Positions 7,004-14,126 of a stretch of 44,682 bases of DNA are shown piece after piece. Below the pieces are notes generated by a model, which saw only the letters and a list, made by a program, of their open reading frames with translations, had not been told where the DNA came from and did no database searches. The position numbers and the translations under genes were made by a program. Each line of letters begins with the position of its first letter. Positions within the stretch are counted from its first letter, which is position 1. Source of the DNA: Fluviicola sp. XM-24bin1 (GTDB taxonomy: Bacteria; Bacteroidota; Bacteroidia; Flavobacteriales_D; Crocinitomicaceae); NCBI GenBank assembly GCA_003149635.1, contig QCWI01000018.1:1-44682 (forward strand), given 5' to 3'.

Positions 7004-7890
7004 ACCAATTCAAAATTTTTATATTCCTTTTTCTTTACTCTATTCAGGTAGGCAGCAGAGAGTGTTGCTCCCAATGTGTCTTCCCATTTCAAGTTAAATT
7101 TGTTTCCATCAAGACTTTCAACTCCGGCAACTTCAGCGGCTGTTCCGGTAAAAAAAGCACCATCAGCCTGGTACACTTCTTCCGGTGTGAAATACTTTTC
7201 TACCACTTCTATTTCAAGTTCTTCTGCCAGTTCGAGTATTGTTTTCCTAGTGATTCCAGCAAGGATATTTCCCAGTGGCGCTGTGTACAGTTTATCATCC
7301 TTTTCGTAGAAAAAATTTGCTCCAGGTCCTTCGGCAACATTTCCATGCATGTCCAGAAGCAAGGCTTCATCGAAGCCTTTGTTTTTCGCTTCGGTGGTCG
7401 CTAATATGGAATTGGTATAATGTCCAACTACCTTGGCTTCTACGAAACAGGATTTTGGATTAGGGCGATGAAAAGAAGAGGTCATTAACTTTAATTGTTT
7501 GTCTCCTAGATAGCGTTCCCAGCTCCACGCACATAATAAAACATGCACCTTATCGGTTGGTTGCAAAGACATGTTTTGCCCTAGGTAAACCAAAGGACGT
7601 ATGTAAGCATCCTTGAGGTTATTCCTTTCAAGAAGCTCGTAAGTCAACGCAACAAGTTGATCAACGGAATAGTCTAACTTGATGTGCATTTTCTCCGCTG
7701 AATAAAGCAGTCGTTCATAGTGTTCCCTAGCTTTAAATACATGAGTTCCCTCTTCTGTTTCATAAGAGCGTATTCCTTCGAATACACCTGATCCATAGTG
7801 TAAAGTCTGTGCATACAGATCTGTAGTTGCTTCCGTGGCTTTTAACCATTTTCCATCCAAAAAGATGGTTGTATTGTCATTGTAATACAT
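7000..7890 (-). CDS. ilvE: Branched-chain amino acid aminotransferase
   Basis: Class IV PLP aminotransferase that converts the 2-oxo acids to Ile, Val and Leu with glutamate as donor. The 296-residue protein begins with the family pattern [16 protein letters not shown] and [15 protein letters not shown]. The PLP lysine is expected in [16 protein letters not shown] (about residue 154). The C-terminal part carries [19 protein letters not shown] and the GTAAEV phosphate-binding segment. It is the first structural gene of the ilv operon. Its ATG lies 23 nt beyond the last base of the second attenuator's U-run, with no recognisable Shine-Dalgarno, as is usual in this phylum. Confidence 0.96.
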
Positions 7891-7913
7891 GATAGTTTAT
7901 TGTTTATTTATTC

Positions 7914-7947
7914 AAAAAAAAAGCCCTTCTCGATGTGAGAAGGGCTT
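7914..7947 (-). terminator. Intrinsic terminator of ilv attenuator 2
   Basis: Read on the minus strand, an 11-bp perfect stem AAGCCCTTCTC (7947-7937) pairs with GAGAAGGGCTT (7931-7921) around a 5-nt loop and runs into nine U's (7922-7914). It sits between leader peptide 2 and ilvE. A strong terminator just before the first structural gene only makes sense if read-through is regulated. The 5' arm plus the first loop bases (CCCTTCTCAC, 7944-7935) can instead pair with the sequence at the end of leader peptide 2. Confidence 0.9.
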
Positions 7948-8011
7948 GTGCGTTTATGTCAATATCGTCCCAGTCTCACCCCGTCAGAGGAGAAATAATA
8001 ATGACTGCGAT
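7935..8011 (-). promoter_or_regulatory. Alternative RNA pairings of ilv attenuator 2
   Basis: Pairings read directly from the minus strand. Pause hairpin (1:2): AUCGCAGUC (8011-8003, the Ile-Ala-Val codons 10-12 of leader 2) with GACUG-gga-CGAU (7975-7964), 9 bp with a 3-nt bulge. Antiterminator (2:3): GUGAGA plus GGG (7979-7974 and 7971-7969) with CCC plus UCUCAC (7944-7942 and 7940-7935), 9 bp with a small internal loop. Terminator (3:4): 7947-7921. Region 2 is shared by 1:2 and 2:3, and region 3 is shared by 2:3 and 3:4, which is the logic of enterobacterial attenuators. Stalling at the Ile codons would hide region 1 and favour the antiterminator. No folding energy was computed. Confidence 0.75.
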
Positions 8012-8038
8012 AATAATTGTGTTTTCTATGTGTTTCAT
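7976..8038 (-). CDS. ilv leader peptide 2 (Ile-rich, 20 aa)
   Basis: ATG at 8038-8036 to TGA at 7978-7976, 20 codons. The peptide reads MKHIENTIIIAVIII followed by SPLTG and contains seven Ile and one Val. Ile codons fall in two clusters of three (codons 8-10 and 13-15), the pattern expected of a ribosome-stalling leader. The region 1 pairing arm overlaps codons 10-12 and the region 2 arm begins at the stop codon. It starts 15 nt after the U-run of terminator 1, so it is translated only on transcripts that have already read through the first attenuator. It was too short for routine gene calling. The function is inferred from composition and placement. Confidence 0.85.
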   Translation of the reverse strand: MKHIENTIIIAVIIISPLTG

Positions 8039-8053
8039 TCTAATATTTTAAGC

Positions 8054-8083
8054 AAAAAAAAAAGCCATCCTATTGGATGGCTT
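8054..8083 (-). terminator. Intrinsic terminator of ilv attenuator 1
   Basis: Minus-strand hairpin AAGCCAUCC (8083-8075), loop AAUA, GGAUGGCUU (8070-8062), followed by about ten U's (8063-8054). It lies 27 nt after the stop codon of leader peptide 1 and 15 nt before the start of leader peptide 2, so two terminators stand in series before ilvE. Its 5' arm GCCAUCC can alternatively pair with GGAUGGU just after the leader 1 stop codon. Confidence 0.9.
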
Positions 8084-8155
8084 CTCTTTAAATTTATTTC
8101 ATACCATCCCTAGCATCTGTGATCAATAATCACGATGTTAATAATTGAAAGGATG
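8075..8155 (-). promoter_or_regulatory. Alternative RNA pairings of ilv attenuator 1
   Basis: Antiterminator (2:3): GGAUGGU (8109-8103) with GCCAUCC (8081-8075), 7 pairs including one G-U. Competing 1:2 pairing: CAUCCU in the leader coding region (8155-8150, the first Ile-Leu codons) with GGGAUG (8110-8105). There is also a hairpin inside the Ile codons, CAUCGUGAU (8137-8129) with AUCAC-a-GAUG (8123-8114). A ribosome at the stop codon (8112-8110) would cover region 2 and allow the terminator. A ribosome stalled on the Ile codons leaves region 2 free to form the antiterminator. This is a prediction from complementarity only. Confidence 0.65.
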
Positions 8156-8172
8156 TTGTTCATTTTGCTCAT
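8110..8172 (-). CDS. ilv leader peptide 1 (Ile-rich, up to 20 aa)
   Basis: ATG at 8172-8170 to TAG at 8112-8110: MSKMNNILSIINIVII followed by DHRC, with six Ile, one Val and one Leu in 20 residues. A second in-frame ATG at 8163-8161 would give 17 residues and is a plausible alternative, because the first ATG lies only 7 nt after the -7 promoter box and would be almost leaderless. The Ile codons (7, 10, 11, 13, 15, 16) precede a terminator whose 5' arm has an alternative partner at the stop codon, as expected for a leader peptide that senses charged tRNA-Ile. It is the first of two leaders on the same transcript. Confidence 0.85.
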   Translation of the reverse strand: MSKMNNILSIINIVIIDHRC

Positions 8173-8179
8173 TGCGTTG

Positions 8180-8211
8180 CAAAGATATGAACATTTTTTT
8201 TAGACATGCAA
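8180..8211 (-). promoter_or_regulatory. Promoter of the ilv leader and operon
   Basis: On the minus strand a -7 box TATCTTTG (8187-8180) fits the Bacteroidota consensus TAnnTTTG exactly. A TTG -33 element (8211-8209) lies 21 nt upstream. The predicted transcription start, a few bases after 8180, falls at or just before leader peptide 1. No second promoter of this quality is seen between the two attenuators, so both should lie on one RNA. Confidence 0.8.
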
Positions 8212-8378
8212 TTTTTTTTTCTGGCGATGGTGATTTGTAATAAATGCATGGTAATCTACTACGTTAGAAACGTCTTTAATGCAATTTATTGATTCGTACC
8301 CAAACAAATAATGTTGGATACTGAAATATTCAAGCGTCTCAACAACGTCTCAGTTGTAAAATTAAGGAGCCGAAAGGT

Positions 8379-8468
8379 TTGCGGTGGATGCCCTGTATTA
8401 CAGGTCTCTAGCGCCGTCCAGACCGCAAGAACACTTGCAGAGCCTCACAGAAATGTGAGGCTTTTTTT
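8379..8468 (+). ncRNA. Candidate small structured RNA ending in an intrinsic terminator
   Basis: About 90 nt with nested complementarity. TTGCGGT (8379-8385) pairs with ACCGCAA (8422-8428), GGA (8386-8388) with TCC (8417-8419), and CCTGT (8392-8396) with ACAGG (8400-8404). The block is followed by the terminator at 8441-8468. It contains CGGTGGATGCCCTG (8382-8395), identical as I remember it to 14 bases near the 5' end of E. coli 23S rRNA, with a TTAAG about 15 nt upstream as in the rRNA. It may be a remnant of an rRNA gene or a coincidence. I see no clear promoter and do not recognise an Rfam family. An overlapping 74-codon frame (8311-8535) reads through the terminator and is probably not a gene. 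Confidence 0.4.
8441..8468 (+). terminator. Intrinsic terminator after the candidate RNA
   Basis: AGCCTCAC (8441-8448) pairs with GTGAGGCT (8455-8462) around a 6-nt loop, followed by seven T's (8462-8468). It is a strong plus-strand terminator with no plus-strand protein gene upstream, which is the main reason to suspect a transcribed RNA here. Confidence 0.8.
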
Positions 8469-8507
8469 GTTTCTATACTTCCGTTTTACGCCTCGATCAC
8501 GTCTCAG

Positions 8508-8867
8508 TCATAAATATTTAAGAATCACATTGTAAGGATGGCAAGCCTTCGGTCTGAATTTATTTAACAGATAAATGGTATCGTTCCACAGTTGCCCTCT
8601 GTCATCATCAAAACCCAGATTCCGTCCGGCAATTGACCAACTTTGGCAAGGCACTCCTGCCGTTAATAAATCGTGTTCAGGCAGTTCCTGAATCTTAGTA
8701 ATATCACCCAAGTTGTTCTCAACAGGAAGATCATGGTTTTTGCAATAATAGGCTATCGCATTCTTATCGATTTCACTAAAACAAAGATTCTTGCCGCCAT
8801 TCGCTTCTAGTCCCAAATGAAACCCTCCAATGCCAGCAAACAAATCAATAAACGTGAATTTCGCCAT
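8508..8867 (-). pseudogene. Truncated DNA cytosine-C5 methyltransferase (N-terminal fragment)
   Basis: The first ~108 residues are clearly a C5-cytosine methyltransferase: motif I IDLFAGIGGFHLGLE (residues 7-21), a SEID motif II (31-34), and motif IV GVPCQSWSIAGRNLGF with the catalytic cysteine at C74. The match stops near 8545, just before the expected motif VI (ENV). The last 11 residues are unrelated and end at a stop. Motifs VIII-X and the target-recognition domain are absent, and I did not find them nearby on either strand. Such enzymes normally exceed 300 residues, so this 119-residue frame cannot be active. No cognate restriction endonuclease is visible. It is a remnant of a restriction-modification or solitary methylase gene, probably acquired and then deleted. 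Confidence 0.85.
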
Positions 8868-8871
8868 GACA

Positions 8872-8879
8872 CAAATTTA
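8872..8879 (-). promoter_or_regulatory. -7 box TAAATTTG before the methyltransferase fragment
   Basis: Minus-strand TAAATTTG matches TAnnTTTG and ends 4 nt before the start ATG (8867-8865). Transcription would begin at or next to the start codon. No clear TTG -33 element is seen. Confidence 0.45.
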
Positions 8880-8997
8880 TTTAAAGTAAGACGTAATCTA
8901 TTTCCGTTTTGCCCTGAGTTAACCAAAAAATTTGAACAATTCCAACTTTGCTTTGCCATGTTCAAAACATGCTCCAACAATTCCTTATCTTCACTGA

Positions 8998-9204
8998 CAT
9001 GCTTCTACTACACAGCTTTCGCTTTCTATCATTTGTTATAGCGAAAGAGGAGACACATCAAATCGATATGTGAAATTTTACAGCAACGATCAACTGGAAG
9101 AGCTGGGCTATTATACAAAGGGTAAAAAGACGGGAGCATGGAAGGAGTTCCACCGGAATGGCAATTTAGAGAAGCTTGTTACTTACGTTAACGGAGTGAA
9201 GTAA
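8998..9204 (+). pseudogene. Remnant of a YwqK/MORN-repeat protein
   Basis: Frame 1 is open from 8998 to TAA at 9202-9204. It encodes YVKFYSNDQLEELGYYTKG followed by KKTGAWKEFHRNGNLEKLVTY and NGVK, which is one and a half MORN-like repeats (G-x-W-x-x-F/Y-x-x-N/D-G pattern) typical of YwqK-family lipoproteins. No ATG is in frame. The preceding codons read LSLSIICYSERGD and could be the remains of a signal peptide. In another frame an ATG at 8970 gives a hydrophobic start (MLQQFLIFTDMLLLHSF) that ends at about 9071, consistent with a frameshifted signal sequence. I read it as a decayed 5' end joined to an intact 3' end. A longer relative lies at 33325-34665. Confidence 0.55.
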
Positions 9205-9213
9205 TGAATTCTA

Positions 9214-9516
9214 CTATTGCACCTCCAAAGCGTCGTACAATCCTACTTCATTGGCGCATTCATCTCGCACCCCGTCCATGAGCTTTGGCTTCTCGGTAAT
9301 TTCATCAAAAGTCCAACGATCTATGATTTTATCCATGACGCAATCCAACCAGGCTTCTTTCACTTTTGGATACACAGAAACGCCTGAACCATCGAAGCCT
9401 TGCGTAAATCCTTCGTCAATAGATTTTCTCGCCGCTTTCTTTTGATTTTCTGACCAACCACAAGCCGTAAGCGATAATGCACCAATAAGTACTAAAGTGA
9501 ACGTAAGGTATTTCAT
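9214..9516 (-). CDS. Small lipoprotein, function unknown
   Basis: Starting at the ATG at 9516 gives 100 residues with a good lipoprotein signal, MKYLTFTLVLIGALSLTAC, where LTAC is the lipobox. A longer frame starting at 9546 would put ten residues ahead of the signal and is disfavoured. The mature part is hydrophilic, has a KKAARKSIDEGFTQGF segment, and contains two further cysteines (in LDCVMDK and DECANEV) that could form a disulphide. I do not recognise the family. It lies 46 nt downstream of the YwbE gene and may be co-transcribed. It converges with the YwqK remnant. Confidence 0.75.
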   Translation of the reverse strand: MKYLTFTLVLIGALSLTACGWSENQKKAARKSIDEGFTQGFDGSGVSVYPKVKEAWLDCVMDKIIDRWTFDEITEKPKLMDGVRDECANEVGLYDALEVQ

Positions 9517-9562
9517 GACGCTGGTTTTGATCAATAAGTTAAGCATCTTTTTGGAAATGAGG

Positions 9563-9757
9563 TTATTCGATGATTTCCTTCACGCGCCCGACCTTGCCGT
9601 CATCCAACATTACTTTGATCCCGTGTGGATGAAATTTCGAATTCGTTAAAATGCGTTTTACGAATCCATGCGTGAGCGCCCCAGATGCTTGATCTTTCTT
9701 GAGAACTACCTCTACCTCCAATCCAATTTCGATGTTTTCGCGTTTTCTTCCATCCAT
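9563..9757 (-). CDS. ywbE: YwbE family protein
   Basis: The 64-residue product MDGRKRENIEIGLEVEVVLK... is a clear YwbE homologue: a small conserved protein with a KKDQ-x-x-G-x-LT-x-G-x-V-x-x-ILTNS core and the ending HPHGIKVMLDDGKVGRVKEI. Its role is not established; the fold is a small beta barrel. The start was set at the internal ATG at 9757 because family members begin there. The frame extends to 9844, but the added residues look non-native. It is divergent from yjbQ with only 42 nt between starts, so their promoters must overlap. Confidence 0.85.
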   Translation of the reverse strand: MDGRKRENIEIGLEVEVVLKKDQASGALTHGFVKRILTNSKFHPHGIKVMLDDGKVGRVKEIIE

Positions 9758-9787
9758 GGTGTGAAGATATTTAAATCTATGAATTCG

Positions 9788-9795
9788 TACCTTCG
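9788..9795 (+). promoter_or_regulatory. -7 box TACCTTCG of yjbQ
   Basis: TACCTTCG (one mismatch to TAnnTTTG) ends 4 nt before the ATG at 9800. This supports that start over the upstream ATG at 9779 and predicts a leaderless message. Confidence 0.45.
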
Positions 9796-9799
9796 ATAC

Positions 9800-10201
9800 A
9801 TGCAAACGACCTTTAACCTCCCGCCCTTTCCTAGAGGATTCCATATTATCACCGATTACGTTGAAGATGCCATGCCTTTGCCTGAATCAGGTGTATTGCA
9901 CGTTTTTATAAAACATACATCTGCCGGACTCACAATCAATGAAAACGCCGATCCCACAGTATTGCAGGATTTTGAATCTTCCTTCAATCATATCGTGAGA
10001 GAAAATGAACCCTTCTATAAGCATACGTTCGAAGGATCAGATGACATGCCTGCCCATATTAAATCAACCATGGTGGGATCTTCTGTGACCATTCCGATCA
10101 CGAATGGAAGACTGAACTTGGGAACCTGGCAAGGCATTTATCTGTGTGAGTTTCGCAACCACGGCGGGTCACGAAAATTGGTCTTGACCGTACTCTCTTA
10201 A
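9800..10201 (+). CDS. yjbQ: YjbQ family protein (secondary thiamine-phosphate synthase family)
   Basis: The 133-residue product shows the family signatures RGFHIITDYVE, FIKHTSAGLTINENADPTV, EGSDDMPAHIKSTMVGSS and LGTWQGIYLCEFRNHGGSR. The E. coli homologue has weak thiamine-phosphate synthase activity in vitro; the physiological role is unclear. The start at 9800 (MQTTFNLPPF) matches the E. coli N-terminus and follows a -7 box by 4 nt. The open frame continues upstream to 9668 but lacks family similarity there. The stop TAA shares bases with the stop of the opposite gene (10198-10201 is TTAA), so the two genes meet tail to tail with a 4-nt overlap. Confidence 0.9.
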   Translation: MQTTFNLPPFPRGFHIITDYVEDAMPLPESGVLHVFIKHTSAGLTINENADPTVLQDFESSFNHIVRENEPFYKHTFEGSDDMPAHIKSTMVGSSVTIPITNGRLNLGTWQGIYLCEFRNHGGSRKLVLTVLS

Positions 10202-10899
10202 TTAGTAGGAAAGTCGTAAACGGTGAAATGTGCGTATTGCGATAAAGCCGTTGGATCGTACGTCAAGCTAATACTACCAGACGTGGTGAATAGCGTAAAT
10301 ATCCGCACTTCGATTGTATTTGACACCCCAGCATTCACTCCTATGGGATGGGTGAAATTCGTCGGAACAAAACCGGTAGAAACGTTCTTCGTAGTTTCAG
10401 AATACGTCTGTTTGTACAAGGCGCCATTGACATAAATTCGATACAAATAATGTTGCGCTGGTGTTGCCGGGATGGACGAAGACGTGATATCGCCTTGCGC
10501 ACTGAAATTAACAATCACTGTATCATTATCCGGAACAAATGAATAACTCAGGAGCGAACCAGAAGGAGCCGTTGAAAAGTTCACTGTAATTGAAAATGTA
10601 CTCGCCAAACTTCCGAAATGAATTTTCCCGCCAGATGATCCAGAGGCCATTGTCGTCCACTCTGGAGCAAGACCCGGGCCTTGAGAAGTCAATACTTGAC
10701 CTGAGGTTCCCGTTTCAAGGTTGATTAATGTACCGTTGACATCAGACACTACAACATTCGTGTCGGTATTCGCCAATGAATCGCTTCGAATTGCTCCGTT
10801 CACATGCAACTTCTATTGAGGAGTATTTGTTCCTATCCCTACATTTTGTCCGAACGAGATTGTCGAAACCAAAATAATCAAGCAAACGGCGTATTTCAT
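10198..10899 (-). pseudogene. Secreted tail-fibre-like protein interrupted by one in-frame TAG
   Basis: The frame from ATG at 10899 encodes MKYAVCLIILVSTISFG, a clear signal peptide, then QNVGIGTNTPQ, then TAG (10813-10815), and resumes in the same frame with KLHVNGAIRSDSLANTD to the stop at 10198. The VGIGT-x-TPQ-x-KLHVNG motif is the standard start of Bacteroidota tail-fibre-like secreted proteins, and the expected residue at the stop is Ser, Ala or similar, so this is a single nonsense change (for instance TCG to TAG) in an otherwise full 233-residue frame. The rest is a beta-rich domain of about 140 residues with no S74 chaperone motif. It could be a young pseudogene, a sequencing error or stop-codon read-through; the downstream ATG-led frame (10809) lacks a signal peptide. 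Confidence 0.8.
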
Positions 10900-11005
10900 G
10901 CAGGCAAATTACGACTTGCACCATGAATTTCTTGGGCAAACAAGACAACAATTAGCAAGCGGTCGATTTATTTATAATTTGGTTGGATATTCTCTATATT
11001 GAACT

Positions 11006-11113
11006 GTGAAGCCTTTCATTGGAATCATATTATTTTTAGTCTTTCTGCTTTTACACAATTGTTTTGAAATGAGTGAATCAGGTTGGCAGGAACTGTATAA
11101 ACACCTCAATTAA
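11006..11113 (+). CDS. Short putative lipoprotein or membrane peptide (35 aa)
   Basis: GTG at 11006 begins VKPFIGIILFLVFLLLHNC, a hydrophobic signal-like stretch ending in Cys (weak lipobox), followed by FEMSESGWQELYKHLN and TAA at 11111-11113. A TATATTGA box (10995-11002) lies 3 nt before the GTG, in line with other starts in the window. The next gene starts 13 nt downstream. Small size and a GTG start make this uncertain, but signal, spacing and box agree. Confidence 0.45.
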   Translation: MKPFIGIILFLVFLLLHNCFEMSESGWQELYKHLN

Positions 11114-11126
11114 TTATTAAAGTGTT

Positions 11127-11981
11127 ATGCAGACACCTCTTGAAAAAGTATTAAACAAGAACGTTCAGATTTTATCCAGAATCCCGTTGTCCGGTGGAGA
11201 CATTAATGCCGTCTTTAAAGTGAAAACGGACAAAGGAATCTTCTGCGTAAAACAAAACAATCGAAATCGATTTCCTGAGATGCTTAAGAAGGAGGCCAAG
11301 GGATTGAAAGCGCTCGCGGAGAATTCAAAATTTCACATTCCAAATGTTATTGGCAATTACGAGGATGACAGTTCCCAACATCTTGTTCTTGACTTCATAG
11401 AATCTGGTCAGAAATCCCCCAGTTTTTGGAAGGACTTTGGGACACATTTGGCACAGATGCATCAACAAACATCTGATCAATTCGGTTGGAGCGAAGACAA
11501 TTACATTGGTTCGCTGCATCAATCGAACAAACAGCACTCGAATTGGGCTGACTTTTATACCGAAGAACGAATTCTTCCTCAAATTCAGATGGCATTCAAT
11601 GCTAAATTGATAGATGCTCAGCTTGTCGAATCCGCAGAACGACTGTGCTCAAAATTGCCTGATCTTTTCCCTAAAGAAGCTCCTGCACTACTTCACGGTG
11701 ATTTATGGTCGGGAAATTTCATGGTGGATGCAAAAGGAAATCCCGTATTGATTGATCCAGCGGTGTATTACGGTCATCGTGAAATGGATTTGGGAATGAT
11801 GCAACTATTTGGCGGCTTTTCGAATGAGTTATTTGAAATTTACCACGAAGTCTTTCCCTTGGAAAAGAGTTGGCAAGATCGCATCCAACTCACACAGTTA
11901 TATCCAATTTTGGTGCATGTGAATCTTTTTGGTGGCGGATACGTTCGAAGTGCAGCCTCCATTATTCATCAGTATTGTTAA
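11127..11981 (+). CDS. Fructosamine kinase family protein
   Basis: The 284-residue kinase-like protein has the family's N-terminal PLSGGDINAVFKVKTDKG nucleotide-binding loop, FCVKQNN lysine, catalytic HGDLWSGNFMVD (Asp as base, about residue 192) and metal-binding DPAVYYGHREMDLGMMQLFGG. It phosphorylates sugars attached to amines, or related free metabolites, allowing repair of glycated proteins. Bacterial members are cytosolic, and their natural substrate is usually unknown. The C-terminus LYPILVHVNLFGGGYV is typical, so the gene is complete. It may be co-transcribed with the preceding short lipoprotein. Confidence 0.92.
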   Translation: MQTPLEKVLNKNVQILSRIPLSGGDINAVFKVKTDKGIFCVKQNNRNRFPEMLKKEAKGLKALAENSKFHIPNVIGNYEDDSSQHLVLDFIESGQKSPSFWKDFGTHLAQMHQQTSDQFGWSEDNYIGSLHQSNKQHSNWADFYTEERILPQIQMAFNAKLIDAQLVESAERLCSKLPDLFPKEAPALLHGDLWSGNFMVDAKGNPVLIDPAVYYGHREMDLGMMQLFGGFSNELFEIYHEVFPLEKSWQDRIQLTQLYPILVHVNLFGGGYVRSAASIIHQYC

Positions 11982-12014
11982 CTCATCTTCAAATATTTAC
12001 CGTACGTGTATTCA

Positions 12015-12038
12015 TACCGTTCATTGGGATGAACGGTA
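12015..12038. repeat. Perfect hairpin between two plus-strand genes
   Basis: TACCGTTCAT (12015-12024) pairs with ATGAACGGTA (12029-12038) around TGGG, a 10-bp perfect stem. It is followed by GGCTTTAAAT rather than a T-run, so it is a weak terminator at best. It may instead be an operator or an RNA stability element between the kinase and the NTF2-like gene. Confidence 0.6.
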
Positions 12039-12086
12039 GGCTTTAAATGCCCCAACTTGCGTAATCTTGAGTATAAATTCAACCCT

Positions 12087-12551
12087 ATGAAATACATCGC
12101 TATTGCCTTTTTATGTTTCTCTTTTACTGCTTTTTCTCAAGATGAAGATGTGATGATCTCCGACAGCGCAGCAGTTCGTGCAGCCATAGATCAATTATTC
12201 ACCGGAATGAGAAATGGTGACAGCACCTTAGTTGCAGACATCTTTCATCCCGACATTCAAATGATGTCCACTTTTGTCGATAACGAAGGGAATCCGCGAT
12301 CACAGATGGGGAGCGCAGTTAAATTTAAAACAGCGGTTGGAACACCACACAAAGAAGTTTGGGATGAGCGTATTTCCAATGTCGAAATTCAGATTGACGG
12401 AAACTTGGCACAAGCCTGGATGAATTACTCCTTCTACATCGACGAGACATTCAGTCATTGCGGCGTAAACGCCATTCAACTCTTCAAAACGATTGATGGA
12501 TGGAAAATGGTGCATTTGGCTGACACAAGAAGACGCGCGAATTGTAATTAG
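12087..12551 (+). CDS. Secreted NTF2/SnoaL-like protein
   Basis: Starting at 12087 gives 154 residues with a typical Bacteroidota signal peptide (MKYIAIAFLCFSFTAFSQ). The frame opens ten residues earlier, but that would displace the signal. The mature protein has the NTF2-like layout: helix VRAAIDQLFTGMRNGDS, then LVADIFHPDIQMMS, and the closing sheet GNLAQAWMNYSFYID...HCGVNAIQLFKTIDGWKMVHLADTRR. Such domains bind small ligands or act as hydrolase/isomerase-like enzymes; no specific role can be assigned. It converges with the NhaC gene, the stops overlapping at 12548-12551. Confidence 0.82.
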   Translation: MKYIAIAFLCFSFTAFSQDEDVMISDSAAVRAAIDQLFTGMRNGDSTLVADIFHPDIQMMSTFVDNEGNPRSQMGSAVKFKTAVGTPHKEVWDERISNVEIQIDGNLAQAWMNYSFYIDETFSHCGVNAIQLFKTIDGWKMVHLADTRRRANCN

Positions 12552-13957
12552 GCCGTTTGAATTTTATTGGTCGTCCGCTTTGACAGCAAGAAGAACAATC
12601 CGACTCCAAATAAATTGAAGAACGCAAACGGCAGATAATCAAAGGTTTTAACGCCTAAGGTTGCCGACATGTAAATCGCTGTAACGTGCCATGGAATGAG
12701 AGATTCCAAAAGTGTCATCGAATTCTCCATACTTCTGGATAAGAGCGATAATGGCAAGTTTCGTTCTTTAAACCCAGCAGAGAACATTTGACCAGTGGTA
12801 AGAATGGAGAACATTGCATTCCCCGAGGCCATATTGAGTAATCCACCAGAGAAAAATGCCGCAACAACTAATCCGTATGCACTGCGGATCCAACCGAAAA
12901 TCACGCGCATCAAACGTTTGATGAATCCACCTTGTTCCATGATAGCGCCAAATGCAACAGCGAGAATACAGTAAAATACGGCACCACTCATCATGCCTTC
13001 CATTCCACCACGATTCAACAATGCTTTCAATAATCCCGGCAGTTCAACCATAGTAACCCACTCTACATCAAACCCTTGAACCATAGATCGCGTCCCTTCG
13101 AAAATGTCAAAACCATTCAAAAACACGCCAATTAAAATCGCGGCAAAACTGGATAACAACATAAGCACCACTGGCGGATATCCTTTGTAACCTCCCACAA
13201 ACACGATTGCTGATGGAAGCAACATGATAGGATTGAGTTCATATATCGTATCCAGATGCATCAAAACATCGTTGATTTGATCAGAAGATGCCGAGGTTCC
13301 CGAATAAACAAATCCAAAGATGAGGAACATGATTGCTGCCAAAACTCCAGCAATTCCAACGTTCGGAAGCATGCCTCTAATGTGCTCATAGACCGAAATC
13401 TCCGTTGCCATGGCACAAATGTTCGTGGTATCCGAAACGGGAGAAACCTTATCTCCGAAGACAGCTCCTGATAAAACCGCTCCAGCTACCAATTCAGCTG
13501 GGACTCCCATGCTTATTCCTATCCCCATAAATGCAACTCCTGAAGTTGCCGCCGATCCCCAACTTGTCCCAGTAAATGTGGAAACTATCGCAGTCACAAT
13601 AAATGCCGTAATGGGCAAATAATCCGGGTGAATCAATTTCAATCCATAGTAGATCAAATAAGGAACGGTACCGCTAAACATCCAAGTCCCGACGATAGCT
13701 CCAATGGCAATCAAAATGACGATCGCTGGCATTGCTTTTTTAAGCGTATCCCCTATAGCATCTAACATTTCCGGGACTTTAATCCCACGCCGATACGCGA
13801 AAACTCCAGCTGATAAAACAGCAACAAGTAAGGTGAACTGAAGTGGTAATCCAATAATGGTACTTCCTCCAATTATGAGAACCATCATAATCAGAAATGG
13901 CAAAAGCGCTTCCCAAAGTCCAATGTCAGAAGAGGAATTATTGTTAGATGATTGCAT
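12548..13957 (-). CDS. nhaC: Na+/H+ antiporter, NhaC family
   Basis: Inner-membrane antiporter of 469 residues with about eleven to twelve hydrophobic helices. Family motifs include FTGTSWGSAATSGVAFMGIG (discontinuous helix), GAVFGDKVSPVSDTTN, and a second repeat with ASGNAMFSILTTGQMF and SLIPWHVTAIYMSATLG. It exchanges cytoplasmic Na+ for H+, possibly coupled to organic acids in some members. The cytoplasmic N-terminus is Asn/Ser rich. It is a single gene on the minus strand with a TATCTTGT box about 6 nt before the start. It faces the divergent hut operon, 214 nt away. Confidence 0.92.
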   Translation of the reverse strand: MQSSNNNSSSDIGLWEALLPFLIMMVLIIGGSTIIGLPLQFTLLVAVLSAGVFAYRRGIKVPEMLDAIGDTLKKAMPAIVILIAIGAIVGTWMFSGTVPYLIYYGLKLIHPDYLPITAFIVTAIVSTFTGTSWGSAATSGVAFMGIGISMGVPAELVAGAVLSGAVFGDKVSPVSDTTNICAMATEISVYEHIRGMLPNVGIAGVLAAIMFLIFGFVYSGTSASSDQINDVLMHLDTIYELNPIMLLPSAIVFVGGYKGYPPVVLMLLSSFAAILIGVFLNGFDIFEGTRSMVQGFDVEWVTMVELPGLLKALLNRGGMEGMMSGAVFYCILAVAFGAIMEQGGFIKRLMRVIFGWIRSAYGLVVAAFFSGGLLNMASGNAMFSILTTGQMFSAGFKERNLPLSLLSRSMENSMTLLESLIPWHVTAIYMSATLGVKTFDYLPFAFFNLFGVGLFFLLSKRTTNKIQTA

Positions 13958-14126
13958 GAAGCCACAAGATAGTTAAAGATGCGAAATGTGGTAAGGACAA
14001 GATGGGAATTAATCGTGGCATAATGAATGTGTAACTTTTGCGTAAAAATTTGCCCAAATTCGACACTTGTATAATTGTAGTAATGTTGAATTATCTCGCA
14101 TTTTCTGGATAGTTTTCAAACAATAC

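Follow-up and report, generated by a model that had tools for sequence, protein, structure and literature searches.

Two putative isoleucine attenuators in series upstream of the ilvEDBNCA operon of Fluviicola sp. XM-24bin1

The window analysed here is a stretch of 44,682 nucleotides (nt) of contig QCWI01000018.1 of Fluviicola sp. XM-24bin1. The sequence of its minus strand shows one promoter of the Bacteroidota type, two leader/terminator units behind it and then ilvE-D-B-N-C-A. We consider it highly likely that these units are two ribosome-mediated isoleucine (Ile) attenuators arranged in series on one transcript before ilvEDBNCA. Tandem Ile-sensing attenuators had been proposed at this position in a first-pass annotation, whose coordinates for the promoter, leaders, terminators and ilvE hold to the base; the proposal is supported by conservation among relatives, by permutation of pairing partners and by predicted folds of truncated transcripts. 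Judged from these comparisons, the operon is very probably under Ile-controlled attenuation in two steps, and the doubling itself is real and conserved. The features of the locus are listed below, with coordinates that refer to the full window.

8211-8209, minus strand: TTG, probable -33 element, 21 nt before the -7 box
8187-8180, minus strand: -7 box TATCTTTG, of the Bacteroidota sigma-A type TAnnTTTG, 7 nt before the ATG of leader 1
8172-8110, minus strand: leader peptide 1, MSKMNNILSIINIVIIDHRC, 20 codons with six Ile at codons 7, 10, 11, 13, 15 and 16
8112-8110, minus strand: stop codon TAG of leader 1
8155-8149, minus strand: segment 1 of unit 1, CATCCTT, pairing with AGGGATG at 8111-8105 in the full-length fold; a weak protector
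8109-8103, minus strand: segment 2 of unit 1, GGATGGT, immediately behind the TAG; pairs with GCCATCC at 8081-8075
8083-8054, minus strand: terminator 1 (segments 3:4 and U tract), with AAGCCATCC at 8083-8075, loop at 8074-8071, GGATGGCTT at 8070-8062 and the U tract to 8054
8038-7976, minus strand: leader peptide 2, MKHIENTIIIAVIIISPLTG, 20 codons with seven Ile at codons 4, 8-10 and 13-15
7978-7976, minus strand: stop codon TGA of leader 2, inside the segment 2 core
8011-8003, minus strand: segment 1 of unit 2, ATCGCAGTC, pairing with GAC..CGAT of segment 2 in the fold; a protector
7979-7974, minus strand: segment 2 core of unit 2, GTGAGA, containing the TGA stop; pairs with TCTCAC at 7940-7935
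7947-7914, minus strand: terminator 2 (segments 3:4 and U tract), stem at 7947-7921, U tract to 7914
7890-7000, minus strand: ilvE, branched-chain aminotransferase (NCBIfam TIGR01122, NF005146); its ATG at 7890 is 23 nt from the end of terminator 2
7003-5327, minus strand: ilvD (NCBIfam TIGR00110)
5322-3589, minus strand: ilvB, acetolactate synthase large subunit (NCBIfam TIGR00118)
3581-3045, minus strand: ilvN, acetolactate synthase small subunit (NCBIfam TIGR00119)
3043-1577, minus strand: ilvC (NCBIfam NF003557)
1580-327, minus strand: ilvA, threonine ammonia-lyase (NCBIfam TIGR02079)

The hallmarks of a leader-peptide attenuator are present at this locus, namely a short open reading frame (ORF) rich in the end product behind the promoter and an intrinsic terminator before the first structural gene. 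Two ORFs of the attenuating type share one leader mRNA, and in both units, by sequence and fold, the stop codon is sited so that a terminating ribosome would cover segment 2. Reading of the alignment showed CCATC against GATGG at the position of unit 1 segment 1 in several relatives. A simple terminator scan detected terminator 2 and missed terminator 1, and a hairpin-energy scan detected both. Since the TAnnTTTG box occupies positions -12 to -5 in Flavobacterium psychrophilum, where leaderless mRNAs amount to 5.5% of those examined (passages of PMC9723704), transcription is predicted to start near 8175. The 5' untranslated region (UTR) of leader 1 would then measure about 3 nt, which makes this leader nearly leaderless. 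A long structured 5' leader with terminators might also suggest a T-box, a riboswitch or another structured leader RNA; a scan of the window against 4227 Rfam families returned none at the gathering score, and thus no match to the T-box model, and we give this explanation almost no credence.

The arrangement is shared by close relatives. This ilvE was found in 12 of the 34 genomes of the genus (E 1e-90), and ten of these 12, the window included, carry both units. In another (locus L008), the contig stops inside terminator 1, which is consistent with two units. Both units are also present in Aureitalea sp. L0-47 (L053), and the ten genus genomes together with this one make up a group of 11 tandem loci, from which the single-unit locus L018 was excluded. 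IlvE proteins of the group are 76-86% identical to that of the window. Mean pairwise identity across the 11 loci reaches 75% in unit 1 and 73% in unit 2, against 41% in the spacer between them (36% when shuffled), 60% in the 45 nt before leader 1 (46% shuffled) and 48% in the 120 nt farther upstream (48% shuffled). Thus both units look selected, standing well apart from a spacer and upstream DNA near the shuffled level.

Start, stop position and Ile pairs or triplets are retained in both leaders at all 11 loci, and no locus has lost Ile codons or pairings on one side only. For instance, Ile-Ile at codons 10-11 of leader 1 is kept at 11 of 11 loci, and three consecutive Ile codons near the end of leader 2 at 12 of 12 when L008 is included. 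The terminators are likewise preserved: in alignments of 16 sequences, 98.6% of cells are paired in terminator 1, where one pair changes from G-C to A-U in two sequences, and 96.6% in terminator 2, where one pair changes from C-G to U-A in four.

Alternative pairing was assessed in 75 dereplicated units, which were gathered without requiring a 2:3 duplex and of which a few are probably not true units. The 2:3 duplex of each unit with its own partner had a mean of -8.71, compared with -6.40 (standard deviation 0.24) for permuted partners, and none of 5000 permutations was as low. The 1:2 pairing gave the same outcome (0 of 5000), while the control pairing 1:3 was not significant (1857 of 5000). 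Folding of the RNA up to segment 3 only, for 32 units from 17 loci, discriminated between ribosome positions: with a ribosome at the last Ile codon at least five 2:3 pairs formed in 32 of 32 units, and with a ribosome at the stop codon no more than two formed in any of the 32. Full-length folds with a masked ribosome were dropped as a test; they returned the same terminator everywhere and did not discriminate. The antiterminator helix 2:3 is predicted to be mutually exclusive with the terminator in both units. In 14 of 15 tandem loci, segment 2 of unit 1 forms a better duplex with the segment 3 of its own unit than with the unit 2 counterpart, and segment 2 of unit 2 favours its own segment 3 in 11 of 15, with one tie and three opposite cases. 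The first-pass annotation had described 1:2, 2:3 and 3:4 complementarities in each unit; the 2:3 and 3:4 helices stand in both, but 1:2 is predicted to exclude 2:3 in unit 2 and not in unit 1. With this qualification, both units are predicted to follow classical attenuation logic.

The folds also bear on the idea that each unit answers to a signal of its own, one perhaps to Ile and the other to Val or to translation in general, comparable to the mgtCBR leader discussed below. When no ribosome was placed on the truncated transcript, the 2:3 helix was lost in 11 of 16 type 2 units and in 4 of 16 type 1 units, so the two types differ when untranslated; moreover, both leaders contain Val codons, and some relatives have three of them consecutively. 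However, at 11 of 11 loci the codons where a stall should mask segment 1 and release segment 2, as judged from their positions, take in Ile pairs or triplets of both leaders, and the two peptides are similarly rich in Ile. We therefore regard different signals as unlikely.

To see how widely such units occur, ilvE upstream regions were gathered from named genomes and from members of the genus, order and class to which the window belongs. A unit was called automatically when an ATG ORF of 9-45 codons with at least three Ile and at least one quarter Ile/Leu/Val was followed, 8-60 nt past its stop, by a hairpin with a U tract, and when the stop region and the 5' arm of the hairpin (2:3) formed a duplex of -6 kcal/mol or lower. 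After exclusion of regions shorter than 450 nt, 130 of the 138 scanned regions were counted, not all of them independent, as some same or identical genomes appear under two handles (L033 = L113; L045 = L103). At least one unit was found in 109 regions: 86 had one, 22 had two and one had three, and the remaining 21 had none. Inspection by eye revealed a second unit missed by the automatic rule at five more loci (L049, L050 of Flavobacterium jejuense, L134, L061 and L087), which brings the regions with at least two Ile units in series to 28 of 130 (23 automatic and five by eye, including one triple). The triple locus, L111 of genome G068, has three Ile-rich leader-terminator units in a row upstream of ilvE; in its genus, ilvE was found in two of ten genomes (E 1e-80), and the second of these, L097, shows no unit. 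Among the other overlapping 600-base pieces of the window, read on both strands, 2 of 288 had one unit and none had two, and among dinucleotide shuffles 1 of 390 had one and none had two. Ile leader-terminator units upstream of ilvE are therefore far above chance. A different layout, unlike that of tandem attenuators, was observed in the Flavobacterium-like loci L043 and L044, where two consecutive Ile-rich leader ORFs precede a single terminator.

Being short, rich in Ile and arranged in tandem, the peptides are similar to Ibs peptides and might be taken for a pair of type I toxins of that kind that lie near ilvE by chance; against this stand the location of units before ilvE in 109 of the 130 regions and the placement of the stop codon at the segment complementary to a terminator arm. 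In addition, no TAnnTTTG box was found on the opposite strand within 7103-14126 (other promoter types are not excluded), and the his and trp leaders of the same genome, described below, share the layout with His and Trp codons. This explanation is hardly credible.

Promoter boxes bear on whether the two gates act in series. A TAnnTTTG box lies within 40 nt before leader 1 at 11 of 11 group loci and before leader 2 at none of 12, one contig offering only 33 nt for the search and other promoter types not being excluded. When all automatic tandem loci were considered, 2 of 24 downstream units had such a box (L012 and L060). At L060 it stands 8-10 nt before the leader ATG in both units, and because the box precedes both, this locus may represent an older state in which promoter and attenuator were duplicated together. 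L060 and the box before unit 2 of L012 are the cases that would fit two promoter-attenuator cassettes, with unit 2 transcribed from its own promoter and the gates working in parallel; given the lack of the box before leader 2 throughout the group, and its presence in so few downstream units overall, we find this arrangement very unlikely for the window and retain two gates in series. Of the 110 loci that hold one or more automatic units, 58 carry TAnnTTTG no more than 40 nt ahead of the first leader, and in 27 of these 58 box and leader are 7-10 nt apart.

A further pattern, TCAGAC[CT][TC], was observed upstream of the ilv promoter at 17 of the 110 loci: L012, L014, L015, L033, L035, L037, L039, L052, L059, L060, L082, L086, L112, L113, L115 and L118, and also L119, which looks unrelated. 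The box resembles ATCAGACTTACTAAAAA or ATCAGACTTTTTATTTT; its distance to a TAnnTTTG box downstream is 51-54 nt at ten such loci and 63 nt at two, and at L012 and L060 it is located between the two units. It is perhaps the site of a regulator. The pattern has no match in the 700 nt upstream in the window. A strong terminator-like hairpin, whose T run is confined to the plus strand, occupies 8439-8464 between the ilv promoter and a piece of a methyltransferase gene. The latter, at 8508-8867 on the minus strand, encodes 119 residues from the N terminus of a C5 cytosine DNA methyltransferase and matches positions 1-105 of the 329 in profile TIGR00675; it is truncated and perhaps a gene remnant adjoining the ilv promoter.

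The origin of the doubling was addressed by aligning unit with unit at 27 of the 28 tandem loci (L061 was left out), each against 200 dinucleotide shuffles. No more than one shuffle scored as high in 19 of 29 comparisons, corresponding to 17 of 27 loci, with L111 contributing three comparisons; Ile-rich peptides alone could raise such scores somewhat. At L111, units 2 and 3 align over 104 nt with 76% identity. In the window the units share a 23-nt stretch at 78%, a score matched by 8 of 200 shuffles. The first-pass annotation saw no obvious identity between the units beyond Ile richness and allowed for an independent origin. The former nearly holds for the window itself and fails for the majority of tandem loci; as for the latter, the 17 loci that align above shuffles and the L111 pair make duplication the likelier source, on sequence grounds.

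Units also appear to have been gained or lost repeatedly. A quick tree was built from 136 IlvE proteins (two of fewer than 200 residues were removed from 138); it has long branches, and many of its forks are open. With 22 rows without an automatic unit scored as not multiple and six with short upstream DNA scored as unknown, the tree requires no fewer than 14 switches between the single and the multiple state. The clade of the window comprises 24 rows, with a Shimodaira-Hasegawa-like approximate likelihood ratio (SH-aLRT) of 99, and includes 15 multiple, eight single and one unknown. Because it also contains four members of another family, the operon together with its leader may have moved between families. 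In a plasmid search with IlvE, 219 records were returned and none reached 60% identity. Among single loci, the seven of genus g42 (L063-L069) keep a GGATGG-type unit, and those of genera g2 and g36 pair GACGAGA, GTGAGAA, TGAGAAA and similar segments, nearer to unit 2.

This turnover invites the explanation that regulation rests with one unit, its partner being a relic or no more than a leaky terminator that stems from duplication or from loss of an intervening gene. A single unit suffices in many relatives (the 86 regions above, five of them double by eye), the state changed at least 14 times, and L063-L069 and L114 have a unit-1-like copy only. A relic is at odds, however, with the equal conservation of the two units in the 11-locus group, where spacer and upstream DNA are near the shuffled level, and with the start, stop and Ile pairs or triplets kept in both leaders at every one of these loci. 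We therefore judge it quite improbable, and favour two Ile gates.

The same genome appears to use leader peptides elsewhere. HisG and the N-terminal domain of TrpE are present, and the 450 nt upstream of the his and trp loci (L204 and L205) each hold a single leader (MITTQLHHHHSNTCTQASVE and MNTTSHINTTEQNWWWSTTLRWCAWR) followed by one terminator. The his leader contains HHHH and the trp leader WWW; no such leader accompanies an extra hairpin located 312-342 nt ahead of the trp gene. Three loci of the genome thus probably rely on leader-peptide attenuation, and among them only ilv is doubled. LeuA was not found in the genome by a search that was positive in 14 of 14 control genomes, in keeping with leaders that are rich in Ile and not in Leu. 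As a genome-wide tag for Ile attenuators the motif GTCATTATTATT was rejected; its one match beyond that of the window lies inside a long ORF on the opposite strand.

Several observations weigh against two working Ile attenuators in series. In the truncated folds, some stalls at earlier Ile codons of leader 2 do not yield the 2:3 helix (codons 16, 20 and 22 in L011; codons 7-9 in L012), and stalls at codons 8-13 of L053 give three 2:3 pairs only. Unit 1 of the window retains 2:3 when untranslated, whereas unit 2 loses it. In full-length folds the minimum-energy structure includes the terminator wherever the ribosome was placed; the decision must therefore be a kinetic one, as it is in attenuators already known. 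Covariation is modest in the unit alignments because the sequences are close: the 2:3 helix of unit 1 shows a single compensatory cell, its covariation score being reached by 15 of 500 shuffles, and the 1:2 helix of unit 2 has 79.0% of cells paired, with 35 of 500 shuffles as high (65 of 500 for covariation). As to distribution, 21 of the 130 regions lack any automatic unit, and L018, from the same genus as the window, has a divergent ilvE (62%) and a single unit. In 600-nt scans no decayed second unit was picked up at L018 or at other single loci.

For the window, we infer the start site, translation of both leaders, termination in vivo, a response to Ile and multiplication of the two gates, acting as follows. 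Polymerase would start near 8175, and a ribosome would load on leader 1 almost at the 5' end of the transcript. With ample charged tRNA-Ile this ribosome would reach the leader 1 stop codon and cover segment 2, allowing terminator 1 to form. Were it to stall at the Ile codons, GGATGGT would pair with GCCATCC and polymerase would proceed. An independent ribosome on leader 2 would then repeat the test with a different hairpin set, in which GTGAGA pairs with TCTCAC. Only polymerases that pass both gates would reach ilvE, so that readthrough probabilities would multiply. Two gates should thus leak less when Ile is plentiful and respond more steeply as Ile falls.

A more general scheme can be offered only tentatively. 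Bacteroidota may possess attenuator arrays in which units for the same amino acid, up to three of them, are duplicated, lost and gained again; the number of gates would tune leak and steepness, and divergence of the hairpins would prevent mispairing between neighbours. In such a scheme the gates of the window might require both a shortage of Ile and available ribosomes in order to open, because an untranslated unit 1 keeps its 2:3 helix and an untranslated unit 2 loses it.

In the trp, his and ilv attenuators of Enterobacteria, a leader peptide rich in the end product decides between the 2:3 and 3:4 helices. The ilv leader of the window is like these in its product-rich peptides, its stop codons near segment 2, its alternative 2:3 and 3:4 helices, its intrinsic terminators and its cognate operon. 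It is unlike them in that one operon is preceded by two complete units, each with its own peptide and hairpins, and in that leader 1 is predicted to be nearly leaderless. The ilvBNC attenuator of Corynebacterium (PMC10272879, PMC11857589) is grouped here with these classical leader-peptide attenuators.

Within the phylum, strong clues for leader-peptide attenuation upstream of amino acid operons have been described in F. psychrophilum (PMC9723704), and small ORFs in 5' UTRs of Bacteroides thetaiotaomicron are reminiscent of leader peptides (PMC7366714); the passages concerned name no tandem attenuator arrangement. The passages of PMC4833913 on leader genes have no bearing on tandems. Among the systems described, the one closest to the double layout is the mgtCBR leader of Salmonella, presented by its authors (PMC3641672) as a singular example of tandem attenuators answering different signals. 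As in the ilv leader, two short ORFs with attenuation functions share one leader, and the term tandem attenuators is applied to them. The mgtCBR signals are ATP and proline, with additive effects, and its hairpins are unlike intrinsic terminators (same passages), in contrast to the ilv units, which are both Ile-rich and both end in intrinsic terminators. Two leader peptides also occur before ermB, but that system is translational and answers to erythromycin (PMC8274638). Tandem riboswitches such as that of B. clausii metE, as related in PMC3641672, and synthetic attenuators in series (PMC3753616, PMC12452182) place two cis-acting gates on one transcript like the ilv leader; unlike the ilv units, riboswitches sense ligands and pT181 attenuators antisense RNA.

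Among the papers listed by a literature search, with subscription journals mostly outside it, none described two leader-peptide attenuators that sense one amino acid and stand in series, which does not prove that none exist. The kind of attenuator is known, and its doubling or tripling for one signal over several lineages appears to be new. In synthetic systems, two pT181 attenuators in series gave a better dynamic range (passages of PMC3753616); same-signal gates in series thus widen the range of engineered attenuators, and nature has apparently done likewise, repeatedly, with ribosome-stalling switches. One genome supplies sequence examples of a single His, a single Trp and a double Ile leader, and natural leaders with one, two and three gates before the same gene allow the question of whether gate number sets leak, range and steepness to be tested directly.

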